From: Corynebacterium sp. 74A
GTDB lineage: Bacteria > Actinomycetota > Actinomycetes > Mycobacteriales > Mycobacteriaceae
DNA: 64,000 nucleotides
Direction: 5' to 3'
Assembly (NCBI RefSeq): GCF_008930665.1
Contig: NZ_PQMG01000006.1
Coordinates: forward strand, 62,001 to 126,000
Below the pieces are notes generated by a model. It was not told the origin of the DNA and made no database searches. It saw nothing but the letters and a program-made list of their open reading frames with translations. Position 1 is the stretch's first letter, and the number at the start of each line of letters is the position of its first letter. This document shows, piece by piece, positions 4,087 through 25,602 of this stretch. The translations under genes were made by a program, and so were the position numbers.

Positions 4087-5568
4087 AGGTCAAACACTCC
4101 TTGAAAGTTTGCTGTCATAAGCTCCGCGCTGCTCAGCACTAGAGACCCAGACCACAATGGCGGCCTGAGACGCTGGCGCTGCGCGACGCCTAAGGAACTC
4201 ATGAGATGAATTCTCTTCTTCCCCTCTTCCGCCGAAGCGAAACAGGATGCAGATCGATACTTCAGCTTCCGCAACGAGGTAGTCACCCACCTCCGAGCCG
4301 GCGCTCGAATCAGCGCACTGTACCGCCGAAGTATCGTCCACACGCGGCCCTGCCCACCCCATCTGCAAGGCTCAACCTCAGGTTGAACCCGCGATGCAGC
4401 TGCGTGACCGCAATAGACCTAGACAGAATACGGTATGGCCGTCGTGAATAACAAGTTGCCACGCGAATAAGATTCGTGGCGCTAGCTGGGCGAACTTACA
4501 TCCCTGTGCTTTTCCCGCTGTAGCTGTGCTGCAACCAGGACACCATCGCGGACGGACTTGTACGGCCCCGAACTCGGCACAAATAGTACGGGTGTACTGG
4601 TATTTAGGTGATTCCACCAGTACCCACATCCAAGAGTGTAAAGCCCCCTCGGCCACGCTCCCCGCGCTCTGCCCGCACGGCCACCGAGGAAGAGCCACGG
4701 CGCTACAGCGGGGGGAGAATGAGCATTTTTTACCCCTGAAATACTGCCGATGTAATTCTCGGCTCGACCCTCGACACCCCTCTGCTCCCGCTCCTGCGGC
4801 AATGCCGATGCGCAACAGAAAAAGAGCATGTCATCGCAATGTGGGATTATCGACTTTCCGGCCGAGGGTACGGAGATAACGATAATTACAGTATTGATAT
4901 TCCCCGCGATTGTTGGACTGTATCCACCACCGGCGGGTAACAATGGAAACCGTGAATTAAACACAGCTGTGAACACCCCGTGGCTGTGGATAACTCTAAA
5001 GCTGAAGTTGAGACTTCCCTGAGCCCGGCGCTTTGATGCAGCTCAGAACCCATTTTTTCGGCGATTTAGTTATGCACAGGCTCTCGACTAGGCTGTGGAT
5101 AGCGCTTGTGCAGTCCAGTTATCCACAGCTGTGGATAACGTTGTGGAAAACTCCGCATCACCATGGAGTTCGGCTATGTCGGCTCTGTGCACACGGCGGT
5201 GTAATCACACAACCGTGCATCCACAGCGAAGCGTTCTTTCCGACTGAGATAACTCGCTTTTTCTGGGGTTATGAACAGGCTCGGAAAGGCCGTCGGGGAG
5301 AGGGGAGACCGGCTTTAAGCGCGCGTGCGCCTTGAGGCTTTGGTGTTTCCTCGCTTCGCCGCGATAGCGGTGAGCTAGGGGTGCCCATGGCTGGTGGCTG
5401 CAGCTCCTTTCGAGGACACCGTTATTCGGAAACGACCTCCTCGCTGGGAAAACGTATCGTGCCTGTGTGGCAGGGATGGTGCGGATGTGTCGTTTCCGCG
5501 TGCCATCACCCGGTGGTGGTGCTGTGCCCGTGATTGTCCGTCCACCCGTGTAGTAAGGGGCTTTCCCT
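4087..5568. other. Gene-free rpmH-dnaA region, left part of the origin
   Basis: About 1.5 kb with no credible gene: the open frames here lack start signals and any recognisable protein. It must carry the divergent rpmH and dnaA promoters. Around 4870-4910 it turns AT-rich (gataacgataattacagta), which could be an unwinding element just left of the DnaA boxes at 4985-5150. The dnaA ribosome site TAAGGGG ends 8 nt before its GTG start. Confidence 0.6.
4985..5150. promoter_or_regulatory. oriC: DnaA-box cluster upstream of dnaA (oriC or dnaA autoregulation)
   Basis: Boxes seen: TGTGGATAA at 4985-4993 (perfect), TTATGCACA at 5070-5078, TGTGGATAG at 5094-5102, TTATCCACA at 5119-5127 (perfect), TGTGGATAA at 5130-5138 (perfect) and TGTGGAAAA at 5142-5150. 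The pair at 5119-5138 forms a perfect 20-bp inverted repeat. Consensus TTATCCACA is established; function as an origin or as a dnaA operator is inferred from position. Confidence 0.8.
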
Positions 5569-7332
5569 GTGACAGAGCATTCTGGTTCTCTCGCCCAGAC
5601 GTGGCAGAGCGTGATTAACGATCTGTTGGCGCTGTCTGAGCAACCCTCCTCTGGGATCGGACCAATTAGCGCCCGCCAGCGCGGTTTTCTCAGCCTCGTC
5701 ACCCCGGTGGCCTTGGTGCCGGGCTATGCGGTGCTCGCCGCGCCTCATGCGATGGCGAAAACCGTCATTGAGCAGGATTTGGGCCCTGCGCTGACCTCTG
5801 TTCTTACCACCCATATGGGCCGCCCGACGGGGCTGGCCGTCAGCGTCAATCCGGAAGCGATCATGCCGGAGACCGCCGCCGCCCCCGAGCAGGCCGCGGA
5901 CTATTCCGAGCACGCCGAACACGCCGAGCAGCGCGTAGATCCCCACGGGGCGGCCAGCAGCGCGGCCACGGAGATGCTCAATAACGACAACGCAGCGGTC
6001 GTCCCGCCGCCGAGCAGCGCGCAGACGCTCTCGCAGCCTACCGCGCACTCCGAGGGCGACAGCCCGCAGCAGCAGTGGGCGGATCAGGGCTGGCCGGAGA
6101 AGAATTGGCAGGAAAGCCATGCCAACTATCCCGAACAACCGCAGCACTCCGAGCCCGGCCAGCATGGGGCTCAGCACCATGATTCGCTGGCGCAGCGCGG
6201 CCACGACGCCTCGGTGGGTTTCGGGCACCCGGTAACCAATCCGCAGGCAGCAGCACCGCAGCGCTATACTCGCGAACAGCCGGCCCCCAAGGCATCCTCG
6301 GAAGGATCGCTGAATCCGAAGTACACCTTCGATTCCTTCGTTATCGGATCCTCCAATCGTTTCGCCCATGCCGCGGCAGTCGCGGTGGCGGAGACCCCAG
6401 CGAAAGCCTTCAACCCGCTGTTCATCTGGGGCGGATCAGGACTGGGGAAAACCCACCTTCTACACGCTGCGGGCCTTTACTCGCAGGTACTGCAGCCGGG
6501 CCTGCGCGTGAAGTATGTCTCCAGTGAGGAATTCACTAATGACTACATCAACTCGGTGCGCGATGACCGCCAGGAAGCCTTCAAGCGGCGCTACCGCAAC
6601 CTCGACATCCTCATGGTTGATGACATCCAATTCCTCGAGGGCAAAGAGGGAACGCAGGAAGAGTTCTTCCACACCTTCAACGCCCTCCACCAGGCGGATA
6701 AGCAGATCATTTTGTCCTCGGACCGGCCCCCGAAGGAGCTGACCACTCTCGAGGATCGTCTGCGCACCCGTTTTGCCGCGGGGCTGATCACCGATATTCA
6801 GCCCCCGGACTTAGAAACCCGCATCGCCATTTTGATGAAGAAGGCCCAAGACGATGGCACCCAAGTGCCCCGGGATGTGCTGGAGCTGATCGCCAGCCGC
6901 TTCGAGTCCTCTATTCGTGAACTCGAGGGGGCGCTGATTCGGGTGGCGGCGTTTTCTTCGCTGACCAATCAGCCGATCACCATCGAGCACGCCGAGGTGG
7001 CGCTGCGCGACATCATGCCGGAGAACAAGCACGTCGAGATCACCGGGCAGACCATCATCACCGCCACGGCCAATTACTTCGACATCTCGGTGGACACCAT
7101 CACCGGCACGAGCAAAACCCATGCGGTGGTCCATGCCCGCCAGCTAGCCATGTACATCTGCCGCGAGCTCACGGCTCTCTCCTTGCCCCAGATCGCCGAG
7201 AAATTCGGTGGTAAGAACCACACCACCGTGATGTATGCGGTGCGCAAGATCAAGAACGAGATGCAAGAAAATCGCGAAACCTACGATCAGATCCAGGAGC
7301 TCACCCAGCTGATCAAGAATGGCTCCGCTTAG
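5569..7332 (+). CDS. dnaA: Chromosomal replication initiator DnaA
   Basis: AAA+ ATPase that binds DnaA boxes and melts the origin. GTG start at 5569 with a TAAGGGG ribosome site 8 nt upstream. The 587 residues comprise an N-terminal domain ([14 protein letters not shown]), a long, Gln/Ala/His-rich low-complexity linker (about residues 100-240), then the AAA+ core with [23 protein letters not shown], Walker [14 protein letters not shown], Walker [15 protein letters not shown], and the C-terminal DNA-binding signature [15 protein letters not shown]. The long linker is typical of actinobacterial DnaA. Confidence 0.98.
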
Positions 7333-8096
7333 CGAGGCCTACGAGCCAGGCTTTTTAGCCAGACTTTCACCCCCGCGGGGTAGGGCAGGAGCACCTTCTG
7401 CCCGCCGCGGCCCCCAGCGCCCGTATGCACAGTGTGTGGCACGGGCGCTGTGTCGTATCTGTACTGGGCGAAGGCGCCGCAGAGGTGGCGTCGATACGCG
7501 CGCTGGGGCGTTATCCACAGAGTTATTCACAGTTGTGTAATTACAGAATTGTCATTTACTGCCCGTTCGGAGAAACCGCAGGTCGCCGCCTGTGCATAAG
7601 TGGCGATTTTCTGTTGTTCGCAGCCGCCTCGACGGTGCATGAATTGTGCACAACGAGCAGGGGTCGAAAGTTGTGCACAACCCCCTCTAGTTATGCACCT
7701 GTTATGCACAGCCTGGAACACATGCCGCAACGCTAGGGTGAGCTGCGCGGATCGTGGAATTACACAGATTGCACAGCACCTACTGCTACTACCAAAGAAA
7801 GTTATGGATTGAACTAAGAAGAAATAGGGGGTGTGGACGCGGCGCCGATTCCTGTCATTCACCGCACCCGCCACGACGGCACGCCGCGAGGTGCGGGGAG
7901 GCGGAATCACATATCCCCTCCCGCGCGGATCCCGGTTTATAGCGGAGTGTGATTCTTGTAGGCTGGGAGGGAAGAACAATTGTTTTGCCGCCGATGAGCC
8001 GATACTGGGCCATATTGGCCGTATCGCCGAGGACCTGATAGCAGGATTTCTTGGCTGCTCAGCGGCTGCTTGTGCTTGAAGGAGCCTCAGCTAAGC
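7333..8096. other. Gene-free dnaA-dnaN region
   Basis: 764 bp without a credible gene. It contains the second DnaA-box cluster (7511-7710) and a relatively AT-rich stretch around 7530-7560. It also carries the promoter of dnaN, which has an AAGGAG ribosome site at 8079-8084. In many actinobacteria oriC lies in this interval. Confidence 0.65.
7511..7710. promoter_or_regulatory. oriC: DnaA-box cluster between dnaA and dnaN (probable oriC)
   Basis: Boxes seen: TTATCCACA at 7511-7519 (perfect), TTATTCACA at 7523-7531, two palindromic TTGTGCACAA copies at 7644-7653 and 7671-7680, TTATGCACC at 7691-7699 and TTATGCACA at 7702-7710. The first two and last two pairs are direct repeats spaced 11-12 nt apart. 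Origin activity is inferred from the dnaA-dnaN position known in actinobacteria. Confidence 0.8.
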
Positions 8097-9302
8097 ATGG
8101 AATCGCAGCCTGTGTCTTTCCGAGTGTCGAAAGATGACTTTTCCGCAGCCGTGGGCTGGGTCGCTCGTAGTTTGCCCACCAAGCCCACCCAGCCGGTACT
8201 TCGCGGCATGGTGATTAGCGCCGACGATGACGGCCTCACCCTGGCCGGATTCGACTATGAAGTATCCACCAAGGTCAGCATCTCGGCGGAGATCGATGAG
8301 CCGGGCCGCATCGCCGTTCCCGGCAAGCTGGTCTCGGATATTGTGAGTTCGCTGCCAAATAAGCCCATCGAGGTGCGCACCGACGAGTCCAAGGCATTTT
8401 TCCGCTGCGGTTCCTCCAGCTTTGAGCTCCCGCTGATCCCGCTGGATGATTATCCTGCGCTGCCCACGCTGCCGGAGGTGACCGGCCGAGTGAACCCGAG
8501 CCTCTTCAACGAGGCCGTGTCCCAGGTGGCCATCGCCGCTGGTAAAGACGACACGTTGCCGATGCTCACCGGCGTGCACATGAAGGTGCAGGGAAAGAAC
8601 GTGGTCATGGCCGCCACCGACCGTTTCCGGCTCGCGGTGCGGCGCTTCGAGTGGGAGCCGGTGGCCGATGACGTCGAGGCCGCCCTGCTCATCCCGGCGA
8701 AAACCTTGCAGGAAAACGCCCGATCCATCGATCCCTCGCTCAACGAGAACGTGGAGATCGCCGCTGGTACCGGCGAGAAGGTGGGCGCCGATGGTCTCTT
8801 CGGCGTGCATACCCGCAACCGCCAGACCACCACCCGCATGCTGGATGCGGAGTTCCCGAACTACGATCCGCTCCTGCCGAAGGTGCACACCTCTTTGGCA
8901 ACCGTGGCTATCGGCCCGCTTCTCGACGCCATCAAGCGTGTCTCCCTCGTGGCCGAGCGCAATGCGCAGATCCGCATGCACTTCTCCGAGGGCCAGGTGG
9001 TGTTGGCTGCCGGTGCCACTGATTCCGGCCACGCCGAGGAGTCGCTGCCCTGTGACTATCAGGTGGGCGAGGGCGCCGAGGGCCAGGATTCCCTGCTCAT
9101 CGCCTTTAACCCCTCCTACCTCAAGGAGGGCCTCAACGCCATGCCGGGACAGCGCGTGGTCTTTGGTTTCACCGCTCCGTCGCGCCCGGCGATCATCATC
9201 CCCGAGCCGGAGGAAGCCATCGAGGCTAATTCCGCTGGTGAGTTCCCCACCCCGGGGTCGGAATTCACCTATCTGCTGATGCCGGTTCGCCTGCCGGGCT
9301 AA
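8097..9302 (+). CDS. dnaN: DNA polymerase III beta subunit (sliding clamp)
   Basis: Ring-shaped clamp that tethers polymerase III to DNA. I take ATG 8097 ([19 protein letters not shown]) with AAGGAG 12 nt upstream; 401 residues. Recognisable clamp features include [21 protein letters not shown] near the N-terminus, [32 protein letters not shown], and the C-terminal [12 protein letters not shown], the conserved P-M-R-L end that lines the clamp surface. recF follows after 10 nt, suggesting co-transcription. Confidence 0.98.
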
Positions 9303-14140: not shown

Positions 14141-14458
14141 CGTATTCGCGTGTTGTGACTCTTCCGCCACAGCTCAGCCGACCACCTCAGTAGTCACATG
14201 CTTTCACTGCAATCACAACTGCAACATAGCTTACATGAGCAGAGGGGCGGCGCCAAGAGAACGGGGAATCATTTTCTTTCTCTGTGCGCGCCTGAGAGCC
14301 TCTATGCGGGCCGGAAGGGTGGTGTGAATTCGATCATAGTAGCGTCGATAAGCGAAAAAATGCGTGTAAATCGCGCTCAGTGCCACTCTGCGGCGAAAAG
14401 GGGAGTAGAATGGCGGAGATTGGATTCTGAGAAACCCAAACCATAAGAGGTGACGCGC

Positions 14459-17071
14459 GTGAGCGATGACAATCAGGGCGGCGAGAGCTTATTCGACCGC
14501 ATCGAACCCATCGATATCAATGAGGAGATGCAGTCGAGTTATATCGACTACGCCATGTCTGTCATTGTTGGTCGAGCGCTGCCGGAGGTGCGCGACGGTC
14601 TCAAGCCGGTGCACCGCCGTATTTTGTACTCGATGTTTGACTCCGGCTATCGCCCGGAGCGCGGCTATGTGAAGTCGGCGCGCCCAGTGGCCGACACTAT
14701 GGGTCACTATCACCCGCACGGTGACTCCGCGATTTATGACACCCTGGTGCGTATGGCCCAGCCGTGGTCCATGCGCTATCCGCTGGTGGATGGCCAGGGT
14801 AACTTCGGTTCTCGCGGTAATGACGGCCCGGCCGCCATGCGTTATACCGAGTGCCGTCTCACGCCGCTGGCCATGGAGATGGTGCGCGATATCCGCGAGA
14901 ACACCGTGGATTTCTCCCCGAACTATGACGGCAAGACCCTCGAGCCGGATATTCTTCCCTCACGCGTGCCGAATCTGTTGATGAATGGCTCCGGCGGTAT
15001 CGCCGTGGGTATGGCCACCAACATCCCGCCGCACAACCTCAACGAGCTGGCCGAGGCCATTTATTGGATTCTTGCCCATCCCGAGGCCGATGAGAAGTCG
15101 GCGCTCGAGGCGTGCATGGAGCGCGTGAAGGGCCCCGATTTCCCGACTGCAGGGTTGATTGTGGGCGATGAGGGCATCAAGGATGCCTACACTACGGGCC
15201 GTGGCTCGATTCGCATGCGCGGTGTCACCAGCATCGAGGAACTGGGTAACCGGCAGATCATCGTGATCACTGAGCTGCCCTACATGGTGAATCCCGATAA
15301 CCTGGTCTCCTCGATTGCGGAGCAGGTCAAGCACGGCAAGCTGGCGGGTATCTCCAGCGTGGACGATGAGTCCTCCGATCGCGTCGGCCTGCGCATCGTG
15401 GTGACCCTTAAGCGCGACGCGGTGCCGCGCGTGGTGCTGAATAACCTATTCAAGCACTCCCAGCTGCAAACCAGCTTCGGTGCGAACATGCTCTCCATTG
15501 TGGATGGTGTGCCGCGTACCCTGCGCCTGGATCAGATCCTCAAGCAGTACGTGAAGCACCAGATCGATGTGATCGTGCGTCGTACCCAGTACCGCCTCGA
15601 CGAGGCCGAGAAGCGCGCCCATATCTTGCGCGGTTTGGTCAAGGCACTGGACATGCTGGATGAGGTGATCGCCCTTATCCGACGTTCGCCCACCGTGGAT
15701 GATGCCCGCACCGGTTTGATGACGCTGCTGGATGTCGACGAGATCCAGGCAGACGCTATTTTGGCCATGCAGCTGCGTCGCCTCGCCGCTCTGGAGCGGC
15801 AGAAGATCGTGGACGAGCTAGCCGAACTGCAGGCCCTCATCGAGGATCTGCAGAGCATTCTGGCCTCCCCAGAGCGCCAGCGCACCATCGTGCGCGAAGA
15901 GCTCGAGGAGATCGTGCGCAAGTACGGCGATGAGCGTCGTACCCAGATCGTGGCTGCCTCCGGCGATGTCACCGAAGAAGACCTCATCGCCCGCGAGAAC
16001 GTGGTGGTCACCATCACCTCCACCGGCTATGCCAAGCGCACCAAGGTGGATGCCTATAAGTCGCAGCGACGCGGCGGCAAGGGCGTGCGCGGCGCCGAGT
16101 TGAAGCAAGAAGACATTGTGCGCCACTTCTTCGTCTGCTCCACGCACGACTGGATTCTCTTCTTCACCAACTTTGGCCGGGTCTATCGCTTGAAGGCCTA
16201 TGAGCTGCCCGAGGCATCGCGAACCGCGCGCGGCCAACATGTGGCGAATCTGCTGGAGTTCCAGCCGGAAGAAACCATCGCGCAGATCATTCAGATCCAA
16301 ACCTATGACGATGCCGAGTACCTCGTCTTGGCTACCCAGCAGGGTCGGGTAAAGAAGTCCAAGCTGCACGATTATGAGTCCAACCGTTCCGGCGGGTTAA
16401 TCGCCATCAACCTCAACGATAACGACAAGCTCATCGGCGCCACACTCTCTAATGGCGATGATGACATCCTGTTGGTCTCCGAAAAGGGGCAGTCCATTCG
16501 CTTCACTGCCGATGATGATGCGCTGCGCCCGATGGGTCGTGCCACCGCCGGTGTGAAGGGCATGCGTTTCCGCGACGATGACCAGTTGCTCTCCATGACC
16601 CGCGTGGACAATGGAGAGTTCCTCTTGGTGGCCACCTCCGGCGGCTATGGCAAGCGCACCCCGATGGAGGAATACCCCACCCAAAACCGTGGCGGTATTG
16701 GCGTGGTCACGCTCAAGCACACTCCGAAGCGCGGCAAGCTGATCAGCGCCTTGGCTGTGGATGAGGACGATCAAATCTTCGCTATTACCTCCGCTGGCGG
16801 TGTGATCCGCACCGAGGTGAACCAGATCCGCCCGAGCTCCCGCTCGACCATGGGCGTGCGTCTGGTGGACCTGGCAAAGGATGTCGAGGTCTTGGCTATC
16901 GACCGCAACGTCGAGGACGAGGGCGAGGAAAACGCCACCGCCGTGGCCACCGGCCAGGCCGAGTCCCCGACCGCTGCCCGGGCGCGCAAGACCGGAGAAG
17001 ATGATGCCACCGCGGACCCCATTCCCGGAGTGGAAGGTCTCAGCGACAACGATGAGTCCGAGGAGGACTAA
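14459..17071 (+). CDS. gyrA: DNA gyrase subunit A
   Basis: Breakage-reunion subunit of gyrase. I use GTG 14459 ([20 protein letters not shown]) because AAGAGG at 14445-14450 is spaced 8 nt from it; an in-frame GTG at 14450 is less likely. The catalytic tyrosine is in [10 protein letters not shown] (about Y129). The quinolone-resistance region reads [17 protein letters not shown], with Ser90 and Asp94, the drug-susceptible residues. The C-terminal beta-pinwheel contains [10 protein letters not shown], the GyrA-box. The acidic tail ([14 protein letters not shown]) is long. The stop overlaps the next start (TAATG). Confidence 0.98.
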
Positions 17072-21037: not shown

Positions 21038-21138
21038 AGTGGTGTCCCACCTTCCAATCTTTAGTTTCTTTAATAGATAGTCCCATCCTAGGTGCAGTGA
21101 CGGTGCACATGCCACGTTTTTTCTCTACGATGAGGGCT

Positions 21139-21660
21139 ATGACTCAGAAGACCGCAACTGCAACGATGCACACCAATTACGGTGATATCGTCATTGAACT
21201 CTTTGGCAACCACGCGCCCGTCACCGTCGAGAACTTCGTCGGTCTGGCCCAGGGCACCAAGGAGTACCGTGCCAACAACGCCAACGGCACCACCGAAGGC
21301 CCCTTCTACGATGGTGCTATCTTCCACCGTGTGATCAATGGCTTCATGATCCAGGGCGGCGACCCCACCGGCACCGGCCGCGGTGGGCCCGGCTACACCT
21401 TCGAGGACGAGTTCCACCCCGAGCTGCAGTTCGATCGCCCCTACCTCTTGGCCATGGCCAATGCCGGCCCCGGCACCAACGGCTCCCAGTTCTTCATCAC
21501 GGTGGCGCCCACCCCGCACCTAAACAACCACCACACCATCTTCGGTGAGGTTGTGGACGAGGACTCCAAGGCTGTTGTGGACTCCATCGCCACGGTGCAG
21601 ACCTCCATCCAGGATCGTCCGAATGACCCGGTGGTTATCGAGTCCATCGACATCCAGTAG
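21139..21660 (+). CDS. ppiA: Cyclophilin-type peptidyl-prolyl cis-trans isomerase
   Basis: Cytoplasmic PPIase catalysing proline isomerisation. From ATG 21139 the protein has 173 residues ([20 protein letters not shown]). Cyclophilin hallmarks: [45 protein letters not shown] (catalytic Arg in FHRV), [16 protein letters not shown] and HHTIFGEVV. No signal peptide, so it acts in the cytosol. An ATG nine nt upstream is possible. The neighbours share no obvious pathway. Confidence 0.95.
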
Positions 21661-21812: not shown

Positions 21813-22496
21813 ATGAATTCCTCCACCATTGCCCGCTGGTATCGCGAAGCGCCCGTGACCGTGGTGCTGGTTGCGCTCAACTGCGTGTTCTATCTGATCA
21901 CCGCAGTCGAGTCGCTCTCCCTGCAGCACAACCTCGCACGCTCCGTGCTGGCCGAATACCTCGTGTTCTTTCCGCCGCGGGCGGCGTATCTCGGCTTCGC
22001 CGGGCTGCTGCCCTCTGTGGGCTACGCCTTTATGCATGTGGGCCTCGCCCATCTATTGATGAACATGTTTTTGCTCTTTCTCATTGGCCGCGAGATCGAG
22101 CAGTATGTGGGCGGCCGCGTGATGGTTGCCGCCTATTTCTGCTCCGTGGTGGGTACGGCCGCGTGCATCACCTGGGCCAGCCCCCTGACCTCTACCGCAG
22201 GAGCCTCGGGCGCGGTCTATGCGCTGATGGTGGTCTTTATGGTGCTCTGCCACCGCACCGGCCGTGATGTGCGCGGGCCGGCTGTGCTGTTGGCAGTGAA
22301 TATCGTCTACACATTCATCGCAGTCAATGTATCGGTATGGGGCCATATCGGCGGCATCATCATGGGCGCCCTGCTCGCATGGCCGCTGGTGTATAGCACT
22401 AGGCAGCAACGCACCCCCATTGTTGGTCTTTTATGTGGGGCGAGCCTGTGTGCTCTGCTGGCCGGCTTCGCGAAGATATCCACAAGCATCTTGTGA
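21813..22496 (+). CDS. Rhomboid-family intramembrane serine protease
   Basis: 227-residue polytopic membrane protein starting MNSSTIARWYREAPVTVVLV. It has the rhomboid features: a hydrophobic first segment ending FYLITAVESLSLQ, GYAFMHVGLAHLLMNMFLLFLIGREIE (the H-x-x-x-N type motif), the catalytic serine in TAGASGAVYALM, and the catalytic histidine in VWGHIGGIIMGALLAWPLV. Such proteases cleave substrates inside the membrane; the substrate is unknown. Its stop is followed directly by the DnaA-box cluster at 22522-22902. Confidence 0.92.
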   Translation: MNSSTIARWYREAPVTVVLVALNCVFYLITAVESLSLQHNLARSVLAEYLVFFPPRAAYLGFAGLLPSVGYAFMHVGLAHLLMNMFLLFLIGREIEQYVGGRVMVAAYFCSVVGTAACITWASPLTSTAGASGAVYALMVVFMVLCHRTGRDVRGPAVLLAVNIVYTFIAVNVSVWGHIGGIIMGALLAWPLVYSTRQQRTPIVGLLCGASLCALLAGFAKISTSIL

Positions 22497-22521
22497 CAGG
22501 CGAGAAGAAACGCACCGACCG

Positions 22522-22902
22522 TTATCCCCATCGACAGGCAGGTTATGCCCAGTCGGTGGGGATAAGTGTTTTGTGGGCAAAGGCAGATAGACTGTGCACA
22601 CCCGCTGTGGAGGCTGTGCATAATCTTCTGCGTGTAATTTAGCTAGACTCGAACGCACGCGCTTTCGAAACGCCTATGCCTGACCTGCGTTTGAGCAGAT
22701 AGTTAGAACATTATTCAGCTGTGTGCACAGCGTGTTGAGTTAGTGCACAAAGTTATGCACAGGCTGTGCAGAACCGCTGAATTACAAGAATGTAAGCAGA
22801 ATCCACAGAGTTATCCACAGCCTGTGCATAACTTTGTCGTTTTCTACACACATGCGCTATGCACAGCCTAGGTTGTGCATAACCCTGTGTAATTGTGCAT
22901 AA
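22522..22902. promoter_or_regulatory. Cluster of DnaA-box-like motifs far from dnaA
   Basis: In a gene-free 586-bp interval I count: TTATCCCCA 22522-22530, TTATGCCCA 22543-22551, TGGGGATAA 22557-22565, TGTGCATAA 22615-22623, TTATGCACA 22753-22761, TTATCCACA 22811-22819 (perfect), TGTGCATAA 22823-22831, CTATGCACA 22857-22865, TGTGCATAA 22874-22882 and 22894-22902. The same non-canonical TTATGCACA variant appears in both clusters flanking dnaA. No gene is visible in 22497-23082. Function unknown; see findings. Confidence 0.7.
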
Positions 22903-23033
22903 CTGCTCTCTCACATGGGGGTGGTGTGCACCGCCTGTGGTGTCTTTTTGGTGCGGCGGCGAACGTGCCGGCGGCCCGGTCCACGGCCTATGGCCGCTAC
23001 TACGCAGCGGCGGCGGTGAGGGTGTGGGGCATG

Positions 23034-23064
23034 AAAAAACCCGACTCCCCAGCGGAGTCGGGTT
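23034..23064 (-). terminator. Rho-independent terminator of crgA
   Basis: On the minus strand AACCCGACTCC pairs with GGAGTCGGGTT over a 5-nt loop and runs into a T6 tract (TTTTTTCAT). It lies 19 nt past the crgA stop. Confidence 0.9.
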
Positions 23065-23082
23065 CTTTCTCGGTCTGCGTGG

Positions 23083-23349
23083 CTAGCGCCAGCCCATCGT
23101 CATCAGCAGCCCAATGATGAGCAGACCGAAGCCGATCGCGAAGTTGATCGGGCCGAGTTCACGCATGAGCGCGATCTGCGGGCCAGCCAAATAGTTCACT
23201 ACCAACCAGGCCAGGCCGAGCAAGATCAGCCCAAACATCAAGACCTTGTACCACAGCGGGGTACCGGAGGAATTGATCTTCACAGGGGTGCGGCTAGCCG
23301 TCGACGTCGACACCGTGGTCGAGCTCTGAGTAACCTTTGCCTTCGGCAT
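23083..23349 (-). CDS. crgA: Cell division protein CrgA
   Basis: 88-residue membrane protein regulating FtsZ-ring and septum formation in actinobacteria. ATG 23349 ([20 protein letters not shown]) has GAAAGG 6 nt upstream. The family pattern is complete: a basic, Ser/Thr-rich N-terminus, two membrane segments ([21 protein letters not shown] and [20 protein letters not shown]), with the conserved [13 protein letters not shown] and terminal MGWR. It follows pknB on the same strand, as in mycobacteria, but with a 204-nt gap and a hairpin between. Confidence 0.95.
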
Positions 23350-23553: not shown

Positions 23554-25602
23554 TTAGGGCGCGAGTTCCAGCAGGGAGAAGCGATAGATCCGCAGGACCA
23601 CTTCATCTTCATCCCCGATGCTTTCTCCGGCGGCGGGAACCTGGGAGGCCACGGTGTTCTGCTTCGTCAGATCATCGGTGGGCTCCTCTTCTTGGCGCAC
23701 CTGGGCTTGGGTGCCCTTCCAGCCGGCGGCCCGCAAGGCGGCGACGGCCTGATTGACGTTCTTGCCGCGGAGATCCGGGACGGTGATCTGCTTCTTGCCA
23801 TTGGACACGCGCACAATCACCGTCGAGCCCTTGGGTACCTTGGTGCCCTCGCCATTGACGCTCAGCACCGTGCCCTCCGGCTTATCGGATTCCACATACT
23901 CGGGCTGCGGAATAAAGCCGGCGGACTCGAGGTTGCCTACGGCCTGCTCGTACTTCATGCCGGTGAGCGAGGGGATGCGCACATTTTCCACACCGGTGGA
24001 GATGGTGATGCTCACCTCGGAGCCCTTGGACACGGCAGTACCGGCGGGCGGCGACTGCTCGATGATCTCGCCGGCGGGGGCGGTATCCGAGGGTTCCTCA
24101 CGCGGGGTGGAGTTGAGCTTTAGTCCCGCCCGTTCGAGTTCCCTATTGGCGGCCTCGGTGGTGCGGCCGGTGATCTGCGGCACCTCCACGATCTCCTTAC
24201 CCGAGGAGACGATCAGCGTCACCGTGGAGCCCTTGGGCAGGGTGGAGTCGGCGGAAGGATTCGTGCCCAGTGCCAGACCACGCGCCACATCTGGGCTGGG
24301 TTCCTCGGAGCGAATCACCTCAAACCCTGCCGAGCGCAGCCGCTGGGTGGCGACCTGCTCCTCGAGCCCGGCGATCGTCGGAACCGAGATGGAGCTTTCG
24401 GCCACCCGCTCCTCGCGGTTGCCAAAGTAGTCCACGGCGAAAGCGACACCAATACCCACCACCACGACGGCGAGGAGAGAGGTCAGCCACACGCCCCAGC
24501 GGGAGGACTTCTTCTTGCGATGCCCGCCCTGGGGGCTTTGCTGTGCCGGGGCCTGCTGGGCGGCGTACTGGTTATTGGCCGGGTACTCGTTCTGCGAGCC
24601 ATAGTGCTGGCCGGCGGCACTGGCGGCCGCGGCAGAGATCTCACCGGAATCACCGATGATCGCAGTATGTGCCGGACCCTCGCCCTGGCGATGGGTGTTT
24701 TCCAGCTTGGCCCCCACCGGGCCGGAGAGGTGCATCTTCGCGGCATGGGTGACGGCGTTGCGCATCACCAGCTCGAGATCGGAGGAAAACTCCGCCGCCG
24801 ACTGGTAGCGATCACCCGGGTGCTTGGCCATGGCGGTGAGAATCACCGCATCAATATTGGTGGCCATGGTGGGGGCGAGATCGCTGGCGTACTCCGAGGG
24901 CGGAGTGGGGGTTTCGTGCACGTGCTGATAGGCGACATCAAAAGGCGACTCGCCCTCAAAGGGCGGCCGGCCCGTGATGGCTTCATAGAGCACACAGCCC
25001 AAGGCATACACATCCGAGCGGGCGTCAGCATTGCGGCCGCGCGCCTGCTCAGGGGAGAGATACTGGGCGGTGCCGATCACGGCAGAGGTTTGGGTCATTG
25101 CCGAGGTGGCGTCGTCAAGCGCTCGCGCAATACCGAAATCCATCACCTTCACCTGGCCGGTATTCGTGACCATGATGTTGGCGGGTTTGATATCGCGGTG
25201 AATGATGCCGGCGTCGTGCGAGGCCTGCAGAGCCGAACACACCGGGATCATTACCTGGGCGGCCTCGGATGGCGAATAGGGGCCGCGGTCGTGGACAATG
25301 CCGCGCAGGGTGGTGCCGTGCACCAGCTCCATCACGATATAGGGCACCGATACGCCATCGATGAGCTGCTCGCCGGTGTCATACACCGCCACGATATTGG
25401 GGTGATTCAACCGGGACGAGTTTTGGGCTTCGCGGCGGAAACGCTCGCGGAAATTCTCATCCCGCGCCAGCTCCATACGCAGCACCTTCAGCGCCACCTG
25501 GCGTCCCAAGAGCGTATCAGTGGCGGAATACACATCGGACATGCCGCCGTGCCCAATATTTTCTTGGGGATCATAGCGGCCACCGAAACTGGTGTGCATC
25601 AT
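23554..25602 (-). CDS. pknB: Serine/threonine protein kinase PknB with four PASTA domains
   Basis: Transmembrane receptor kinase that senses muropeptides or lipid II and controls growth and division. The 682-residue protein has a kinase domain at about residues 8-275 (IGHGGMSDVYSATD; catalytic HRDIKPANIMV; DFGIARALDD), a juxtamembrane stretch, one membrane helix (LLAVVVVGIGVAFAVDYF), and four extracellular PASTA repeats (beginning ISVPTIAGLE, EVPQITGRTT, RIPSLTGMKY and TVPDLRGKNV). It starts inside the stop of pknA (TAATG). The last residues (FSLLELAP) form a hydrophobic end. Confidence 0.97.
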   Translation of the reverse strand: MMHTSFGGRYDPQENIGHGGMSDVYSATDTLLGRQVALKVLRMELARDENFRERFRREAQNSSRLNHPNIVAVYDTGEQLIDGVSVPYIVMELVHGTTLRGIVHDRGPYSPSEAAQVMIPVCSALQASHDAGIIHRDIKPANIMVTNTGQVKVMDFGIARALDDATSAMTQTSAVIGTAQYLSPEQARGRNADARSDVYALGCVLYEAITGRPPFEGESPFDVAYQHVHETPTPPSEYASDLAPTMATNIDAVILTAMAKHPGDRYQSAAEFSSDLELVMRNAVTHAAKMHLSGPVGAKLENTHRQGEGPAHTAIIGDSGEISAAAASAAGQHYGSQNEYPANNQYAAQQAPAQQSPQGGHRKKKSSRWGVWLTSLLAVVVVGIGVAFAVDYFGNREERVAESSISVPTIAGLEEQVATQRLRSAGFEVIRSEEPSPDVARGLALGTNPSADSTLPKGSTVTLIVSSGKEIVEVPQITGRTTEAANRELERAGLKLNSTPREEPSDTAPAGEIIEQSPPAGTAVSKGSEVSITISTGVENVRIPSLTGMKYEQAVGNLESAGFIPQPEYVESDKPEGTVLSVNGEGTKVPKGSTVIVRVSNGKKQITVPDLRGKNVNQAVAALRAAGWKGTQAQVRQEEEPTDDLTKQNTVASQVPAAGESIGDEDEVVLRIYRFSLLELAP

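Follow-up and report, generated by a model that had tools for sequence, protein, structure and literature searches.

Why should a bacterial chromosome carry a dense group of motifs for the initiator protein DnaA well away from its replication origin (oriC)? The question is raised by a 64,000-nucleotide stretch of Corynebacterium sp. 74A (here called the window; contig NZ_PQMG01000006.1, positions 62,001 to 126,000, or G000:C8:62001-126000 in our numbering of its 2.46-Mb, 11-contig genome), in which such a group lies between a rhomboid-family gene and crgA. To our knowledge, the control of DnaA in actinobacteria is poorly understood. From sequence comparison, we lean toward reading this locus as an origin-proximal site of DnaA control, acting by titration or inactivation in the manner of datA or of the DnaA-box clusters (DBCs) of Bacillus subtilis, and as the local version, in Corynebacterium, of an element located 3′ of crgA in many actinobacteria.

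A dense cluster of DnaA boxes outside the origin

A first-pass annotation, made from the sequence alone, had proposed a cluster of DnaA-box-like motifs at this place, and the cluster is real: positions 22476 to 22902 hold six exact and seven one-mismatch matches to TTATNCACA. The six exact boxes span 288 bp (22615-22902). They comprise the perfect TTATCCACA (22811-22819, forward strand) and the five copies of TTATGCACA that had been picked out at the outset, of which one is on the forward strand (22753-22761) and four are on the reverse strand (22615-22623, 22823-22831, 22874-22882, and 22894-22902). The TTATCCACA box forms an inverted pair, with 3-bp spacing, with the TTATGCACA at 22823. One-mismatch boxes lie to the left (22522 and 22543, forward, and 22557, reverse, within 22522-22565) and among the exact boxes (TTCTGCACA at 22765-22773, reverse, and two at 22842 and 22857, forward, within 22842-22865).

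The density of boxes is far above background. TTWTNCACA occurs 16 times in the window, compared to a mean of 1.17 and a maximum of 5 in 100 shuffled sequences, and six of the 16 fall at 22615-22902. At the genome rate of this pattern, six boxes in 288 bp have a Poisson P value of 4.4e-15 (for a single stretch, uncorrected for the number of places examined). Across the whole genome, TTWTNCACA has 104 matches, 100 of which we could place, versus 40 for the reversed pattern, and TTATNCACA has 62, every one of them placed, versus 18. Three or more exact TTATNCACA boxes within 500 bp are found only upstream of dnaA (4 boxes), between dnaA and dnaN (4), between the rhomboid gene and crgA (6), and upstream of dnaB (5), and these four clusters together hold 19 of the 62. 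The early impression that the density equals that of the origin clusters was therefore borne out, with comparable density only at oriC and dnaB. The shuffled and reversed-pattern controls, together with the class-wide conservation described below, speak against an artefact of chance or composition, although the cluster region is more A+T-rich than its surroundings. Published DnaA binding at the mycobacterial counterpart, as given in excerpts of PMC7738170, likewise speaks against sites for another protein. We assign these explanations a negligible probability, and a chance origin of the cluster is excluded.

The cluster lies about 17 kb from the start of dnaA (position 5569), the distance first given for it. 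Its predicted lack of coding sequence also stood, in that no open reading frame of at least 80 amino acids in the window lies fully inside 22497-23082.

Conservation and layout of the locus

All 81 genomes of our genus sample have crgA. Surrounding pieces no longer than 20 kb were taken from 60 of the 80 genomes other than that of the window, making 61 loci with the window. With a score of at least 8 counted as a strong cluster, 44 loci have a strong cluster, 3 score 6 to 7, and 14 score 5 or less. The cluster is thus kept in relatives, as the first-pass annotation had thought worth asking, and it extends to other genera and families. The arrangement was read from part of a MAFFT alignment (27 cluster regions) and from maps of 14 loci. 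In 36 of the 38 strong loci with a recognized rhomboid stop, the cluster starts within -200 to +450 bp of that stop, and it stays by the rhomboid gene even where crgA is about 11 kb away. Hence, the original description of a cluster beside crgA holds in other genera, whereas in Corynebacterium the cluster tracks the rhomboid gene, and no strong cluster was seen in the pieces from 13 of 60 relatives. Because the cluster follows the rhomboid gene, with crgA up to about 11 kb off, crgA is hardly its target. The distance from dnaA to crgA ranges from 16 to 87 kb, with a median of 32 kb (63 of the 81 genomes, those with both genes on one contig).

Among the 14 low-scoring loci, 11 have at most 105 bp between the rhomboid stop and crgA, leaving no room for a cluster. 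Two others have the rhomboid gene 3.2 to 3.3 kb off and no cluster, and in one (L034, from genome G068) exact box pairs lie about 20 kb from crgA, beyond the piece examined. Two strict patterns had no match outside oriC in the 13 genomes lacking the cluster. In four genomes without a crgA cluster (G033, G054, G015, and G079), one or two exact TTATCCACA boxes were seen, among the matches listed, about 12 to 16 kb upstream of dnaA; these may be a replacement site.

Part of the cluster has a fixed architecture. The genus-wide element of the locus is a composite, TGTGNATAA-N9-TGTAATT, found in the window at 22615-22639 (forward). It has 29 exact matches in the 81 whole Corynebacterium genomes and none for the reversed control. 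Of these, 28 lie 3′ of crgA at a distance of no more than 25 kb; the remaining match shares a contig with dnaA, in a genome where crgA lies on a different contig and starts 115 bp from its edge. Allowing one mismatch adds 24 matches (15 on the 3′ side of crgA, 3 at oriC, and 6 elsewhere), so that 45 of the 81 genomes carry the composite in exact or one-mismatch form. In G012, G057, and G011, one-mismatch copies precede the region encoding the DnaA C-terminal domain by about 2 kb, which places them upstream of dnaA. Exact inverted box pairs were found at 47 sites, again with none for the reversed control: 31 share that side of crgA, 13 belong to oriC, and 3 are elsewhere. Of the 29 distances below 60 bp from an inverted box to TGTAATT, 24 measure 18 bp, and these come from 24 of the 44 loci. 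A palindromic element, TTACATTCTTGTAATT (ACA-N4-TGT), recognized by eye at 22780-22795 on the reverse strand, is like the palindrome that lies beyond the boxes beside crgA in other genera. TGTAATTT is present in 37 copies inside the 44 clusters and in 4 copies in the remainder of the same loci. TTCGAA is about ninefold denser inside clusters than outside (28 versus 106 copies; cluster loci among L015-L074).

We considered TGTGNANAA-N9-TGTAATT as a strict family-wide pattern and rejected it, as it was found in only 3 of 61 family genomes, all three Corynebacterium; by eye, the spacing in other genera is one base longer. Since the strict pattern fails outside the genus, we used a box test and a wider pattern there. 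The family set held one genome each from 20 of the 30 other genera in the sample, and the class set held 20 of 107 genomes with crgA, drawn from 19 further families within the order and class. A TTNTNCACA box lies no more than 250 bp from the 3′ end of crgA in 17 of the 20 family genera (26 boxes versus 0.23 expected) and in 13 of the 20 class genomes (29 boxes versus 0.33 expected). Two genomes of one family, which we take, unconfirmed, to be Streptomycetaceae, have five box matches within 261 bp 3′ of crgA, two of them overlapping on opposite strands. The usual layout in other genera is TTATCCACA-N4-TTATCCACA-N-TGGGGATGA-...ACA-N4-TGT, in which one or two of the boxes are frequently degenerate, and Corynebacterium loci such as L048 and L061 have nearly the same layout.

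A scan of public genomes with a DNA pattern made up of two boxes plus an inverted third one gave at least 120 loci, many from Amycolatopsis and Rhodococcus and thus not mutually independent. crgA is present in 98 of the 120 loci listed. The element lies 25 to 457 bp behind crgA in 96 of these 98 (3.9 and 5.1 kb in the other two) and has the same orientation relative to crgA in 97. Positions within the scan pattern are conserved by construction; the palindrome ACA-N4-TGT is outside the pattern, and it follows the element in 92 of the 98 loci, mycobacterial L174 and L189 among them, compared to 15 of 3,250 random windows. The named crgA-bearing matches include Amycolatopsis, Rhodococcus, Prescottella, Gordonia, Williamsia, Dietzia, Mycobacterium, Mycobacteroides, Saccharopolyspora, Pseudonocardia, and Kibdelosporangium, with a Streptomyces in the opposite orientation. 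The other 22 listed loci lack crgA. Of the 15 of these that we inspected, 4 are cut off by the edge of the locus, 2 are behind a rhomboid gene, 1 is near dnaB, and 8 have no explanation (these include metagenome-assembled genomes labeled Clostridia and Cytophagales). L168 (Kitasatospora) and L179 (a Bifidobacterium metagenome-assembled genome) are perhaps mislabeled, which is a guess.

Both the boxes and the DnaA protein of this species are unusual. In the window cluster, TTATGCACA accounts for five of the six exact boxes, whereas across the 44 clusters the variant position of the box is C in 170 cases, G in 7, T in 2, and A in 2. The DnaA signature encoded in the window is GGKNHTTV; in other Corynebacterium DnaA proteins, it is GGKDHTTV (10 of 10, and 28 of 28 among the best 30 of 241 genomes). 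We take the D of the signature to be D433 of E. coli DnaA, a box-contacting residue. The N signature occurs in 2 of the best 30 dnaA loci read, those of the window species and of its sister species, G265. In G265, all six exact boxes of the rhomboid-crgA gap are TTATGCACA, and two TTATGCACA and one TTATTCACA lie near dnaA. The two species have identical sequence in five of the six exact boxes and in the TGTAATT at position 22633. The N signature with its many TTATGCACA boxes is perhaps a natural change of box preference. Several observations do not favor a clean switch: among the exact boxes in this genome's four clusters, 11 are TTATGCACA, 7 are TTATCCACA, and 1 is TTATTCACA; three of the four boxes upstream of dnaA are TTATCCACA; and 2 of the 28 D-type loci carry one TTATGCACA each. 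The pairing is one event in one clade, and it lends slight further support to DnaA as the reader of the locus.

Comparison with origins, promoters, and known DnaA sites

The first-pass annotation had listed a second origin among the possible roles. In its favor, box clusters and TGTAATT are common to oriC and the rhomboid-crgA locus, and the cluster region has a lower G+C content (0.526) than the whole window (0.615). However, the two are differently arranged, and a DnaA-trio-like CTACTACTACTA (up to two mismatches) is present in 10 of 11 oriCs and in none of 44 clusters. The oriC stretches measured 768 or 1,850 bp and the clusters 540 bp; random stretches gave 1 of 44 at 540 bp and 9 of 100 at 1,850 bp. 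The oriC result was unchanged when 800 bp behind dnaA was used (9 of the 10 fetched, besides the window). In the window, the trio-like CTACTGCTACTA is at 7780-7791 (forward) in oriC, of which the cluster in the dnaA-dnaN gap occupies 7511-7710; a further cluster lies upstream of dnaA, on the oriC side (4985-5150). Because the trio is lacking from the cluster, we rejected a second or vestigial replication origin, which we consider extremely unlikely.

The window oriC (7511-7560) and other oriCs carry TTATNCACA-N4-TGTAATT, and several genomes have a second TGTAATT 14 bp further on. We considered MtrA as a reader of the TGTAATT element. According to excerpts of PMC3353115, the MtrA site is an 8-bp direct repeat with a 3-bp linker, RTAACAATttnRTAACAAT. 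In a comparison by eye, this consensus did not appear to fit, TGTAATT recurring after 14 bp in several oriCs and the crgA element being a palindrome, and MtrA was provisionally set aside. A phage origin was also set aside, as a blastn search of phage records gave no match.

A transcriptional role fits the gene arrangement poorly. The rhomboid gene (21813-22496, forward) and crgA (23083-23349, reverse), like the other window genes named here assigned by Pfam, converge on the gap of 22497-23082 that holds the boxes (22522-22902), so that the gap has two gene ends and no gene start. Since both genes converge on it, the cluster is not the promoter of either. DnaA could instead repress or stop transcription of the rhomboid gene, crgA, or an unseen small RNA, and two weak promoter-like matches were found where 0.6 were expected. 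Nevertheless, both neighbors end in the gap, there was no Rfam match at gathering scores, and the cluster is retained where crgA no longer adjoins; we regard such control as very unlikely and rejected a promoter or small-RNA role. By eye, a hairpin, CCCGACTCC-N5-GGAGTCGGG, with A/T runs on its flanks (23040-23062), looks like a two-way terminator behind crgA; the scan that gave the weak promoter-like matches did not pick it up.

The closest counterpart is mycobacterial. We take Rv0011c of Mycobacterium tuberculosis to be crgA. Excerpts of Hicks 2020 (PMC7738170) name five regions highly enriched for DnaA in vitro, namely, oriC, rpmH-dnaA, Rv0010c-Rv0011c, the region upstream of dnaB, and Rv3843c-RVnc0040, and report that their homologues are bound in M. 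smegmatis by chromatin immunoprecipitation sequencing. DnaA binding at the mycobacterial counterpart of our locus has therefore been demonstrated in print; for Corynebacterium sp. 74A, we infer that DnaA binds the cluster and that its effect is negative. Like the Rv0010c-Rv0011c site, the window locus is 3′ of crgA, combines a DnaA-box cluster with a palindrome, and is one of the genome's few mapped or predicted DnaA sites besides oriC, rpmH-dnaA, and dnaB. Unlike that site, the Corynebacterium cluster extends over about 290 bp, with six exact boxes in the window; its flanking genes converge, and it follows the rhomboid gene. We concluded that the two correspond. The excerpts state that the authors saw no obvious correspondence to Rv0010c-Rv0011c in other species, whereas our comparison detected related elements across many genera of the class. 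They also state that all but one of the recurrent clinical changes at the site affect a small palindrome (PMC7738170), which ACA-N4-TGT probably represents. Among the matches listed in a literature search thin on subscription papers, only PMC7738170 treats the locus as a DnaA site, and that search found no description of its conservation outside mycobacteria.

The fourth cluster of the window species lies in the rplI-dnaB gap, before the replicative helicase gene, about 55 kb to the left of dnaA (G000:C8:11968-12327; L003:5969-6328). At least two exact boxes are found upstream of dnaB in 15 of the 20 Corynebacterium genomes fetched for that gene. The four clusters of this genome thus correspond to four of the five mapped mycobacterial DnaA sites, which suggests that a core set of DnaA targets is old. 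Isolated divergent box pairs also occur in the genome (G000:C4:393026, C7:169798, C7:30621, and C4:9681).

E. coli DARS1 and DARS2 (DnaA-reactivating sequences) differ from the crgA locus in core arrangement and position. They resemble it as noncoding box clusters and, according to excerpts of PMC5742627, act on the nucleotide state of DnaA. datA is likewise a noncoding box cluster outside oriC; the same excerpts state that it lowers active DnaA and works with IHF, whereas the crgA boxes have a palindrome alongside instead (PMC5742627). DnaA-box clusters of Streptomyces coelicolor and B. subtilis are said to repress untimely initiation (cited in the excerpts of PMC5742627 and PMC4585315). As in clusters of this Bacillus and Streptomyces type, the boxes studied here are near oriC but outside it (17 kb in the window). 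S. coelicolor is itself an actinobacterium, and its cluster (Smulczyk-Krawczyszyn 2006), which is near oriC but not part of it, may coincide with the crgA element. The B. subtilis DBCs (Okumura 2012) are also near oriC but belong to another phylum, and we liken them from their description in excerpts.

Titration, reactivation, or a link to division

Box density across the genome, conservation in relatives, and published binding in mycobacteria together fit a locus of DnaA titration or DnaA-state control, and to this extent the first-pass proposal of such roles held, without its second origin. In the mechanism we propose, the paired boxes would be occupied by DnaA; excerpts of PMC11317965 state that E. 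coli DnaA prefers box pairs 2 to 3 bp apart. Lying near oriC, the locus would be duplicated early after each initiation. The doubled locus would then withdraw free DnaA, or help to turn ATP-DnaA over to the inactive form, and the lowered level of active DnaA would keep oriC from firing again too soon. We favor titration or inactivation because of this early duplication, the paired boxes, and the lack of a trio.

Several observations weigh against that preference. The excerpts of PMC7738170 report that M. tuberculosis mutants of the site have longer cells, as dnaA mutants do, and that the initiation rate is unchanged in the dnaA mutants. Neither is predicted by a pure titration site, and together they hint at a positive role or a role in cell division. 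The window species has not kept the tandem pair of the wider form, having on the left side only an inverted box and a TGTAATT half, and its full palindrome is on the opposite strand relative to that form. Moreover, 13 of the 60 relatives are without a strong cluster in the piece examined, indicating that the cluster is dispensable in some lineages. A box within 250 bp of crgA is lacking from 3 of the 20 other genera and from 7 of the 20 class genomes.

The main alternative is a DARS-like site, at which oligomers of DnaA bound to the boxes, possibly helped by a factor at the palindrome, would release ADP, regenerate ATP-DnaA, and promote initiation. The 18-bp distance from box to TGTAATT, constant in 24 of 29 cases, suggests a built complex rather than loose boxes. 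The origin-proximal position is unlike that of E. coli DARS2. According to the excerpts of PMC7738170, the long cells of M. tuberculosis dnaA mutants were likened by the authors to those of hypomorphic alleles; the site mutants resemble them, as if an activator had been lost. Against this stands the unchanged initiation rate of the dnaA mutants, and we consider reactivation unlikely.

A second alternative is that bound DnaA couples replication to division, acting on division or on the organization of the origin-near chromosome and on initiation only secondarily. crgA and a PASTA kinase gene (23554-25602) are nearby, and the excerpts of PMC7738170 report that the authors inferred altered coordination of replication and division from their mutants, with the longer cells of the site mutants in agreement. 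However, the cluster stays with the rhomboid gene when crgA is distant, the exact pairs of G068 are about 20 kb from crgA, and neither Rv0010c nor Rv0011c changes in expression when dnaA is mutated in M. tuberculosis (PMC7738170, excerpts). We consider this coupling more doubtful still. Between dnaA (5569-7332, forward) and the rhomboid gene, the window also encodes dnaN (8070-9302), gyrA (14450-17071), and a cyclophilin (21097-21660).

As for the palindrome, we propose tentatively that ACA-N4-TGT, whose spacing from the boxes is fixed, binds an actinobacterial partner of DnaA that plays the part of IHF at datA and DARS2, and that the element is a DnaA-state switch dating back to the class ancestor.

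What is new here is the wide conservation and fixed architecture of a DnaA element beside crgA. Found at the same position across many genera of the class, with a defined arrangement and a further conserved motif, it is a small piece of DNA open to deletion, moving, and assay in harmless laboratory strains. It would also make general a site whose discoverers saw no correspondence outside mycobacteria.
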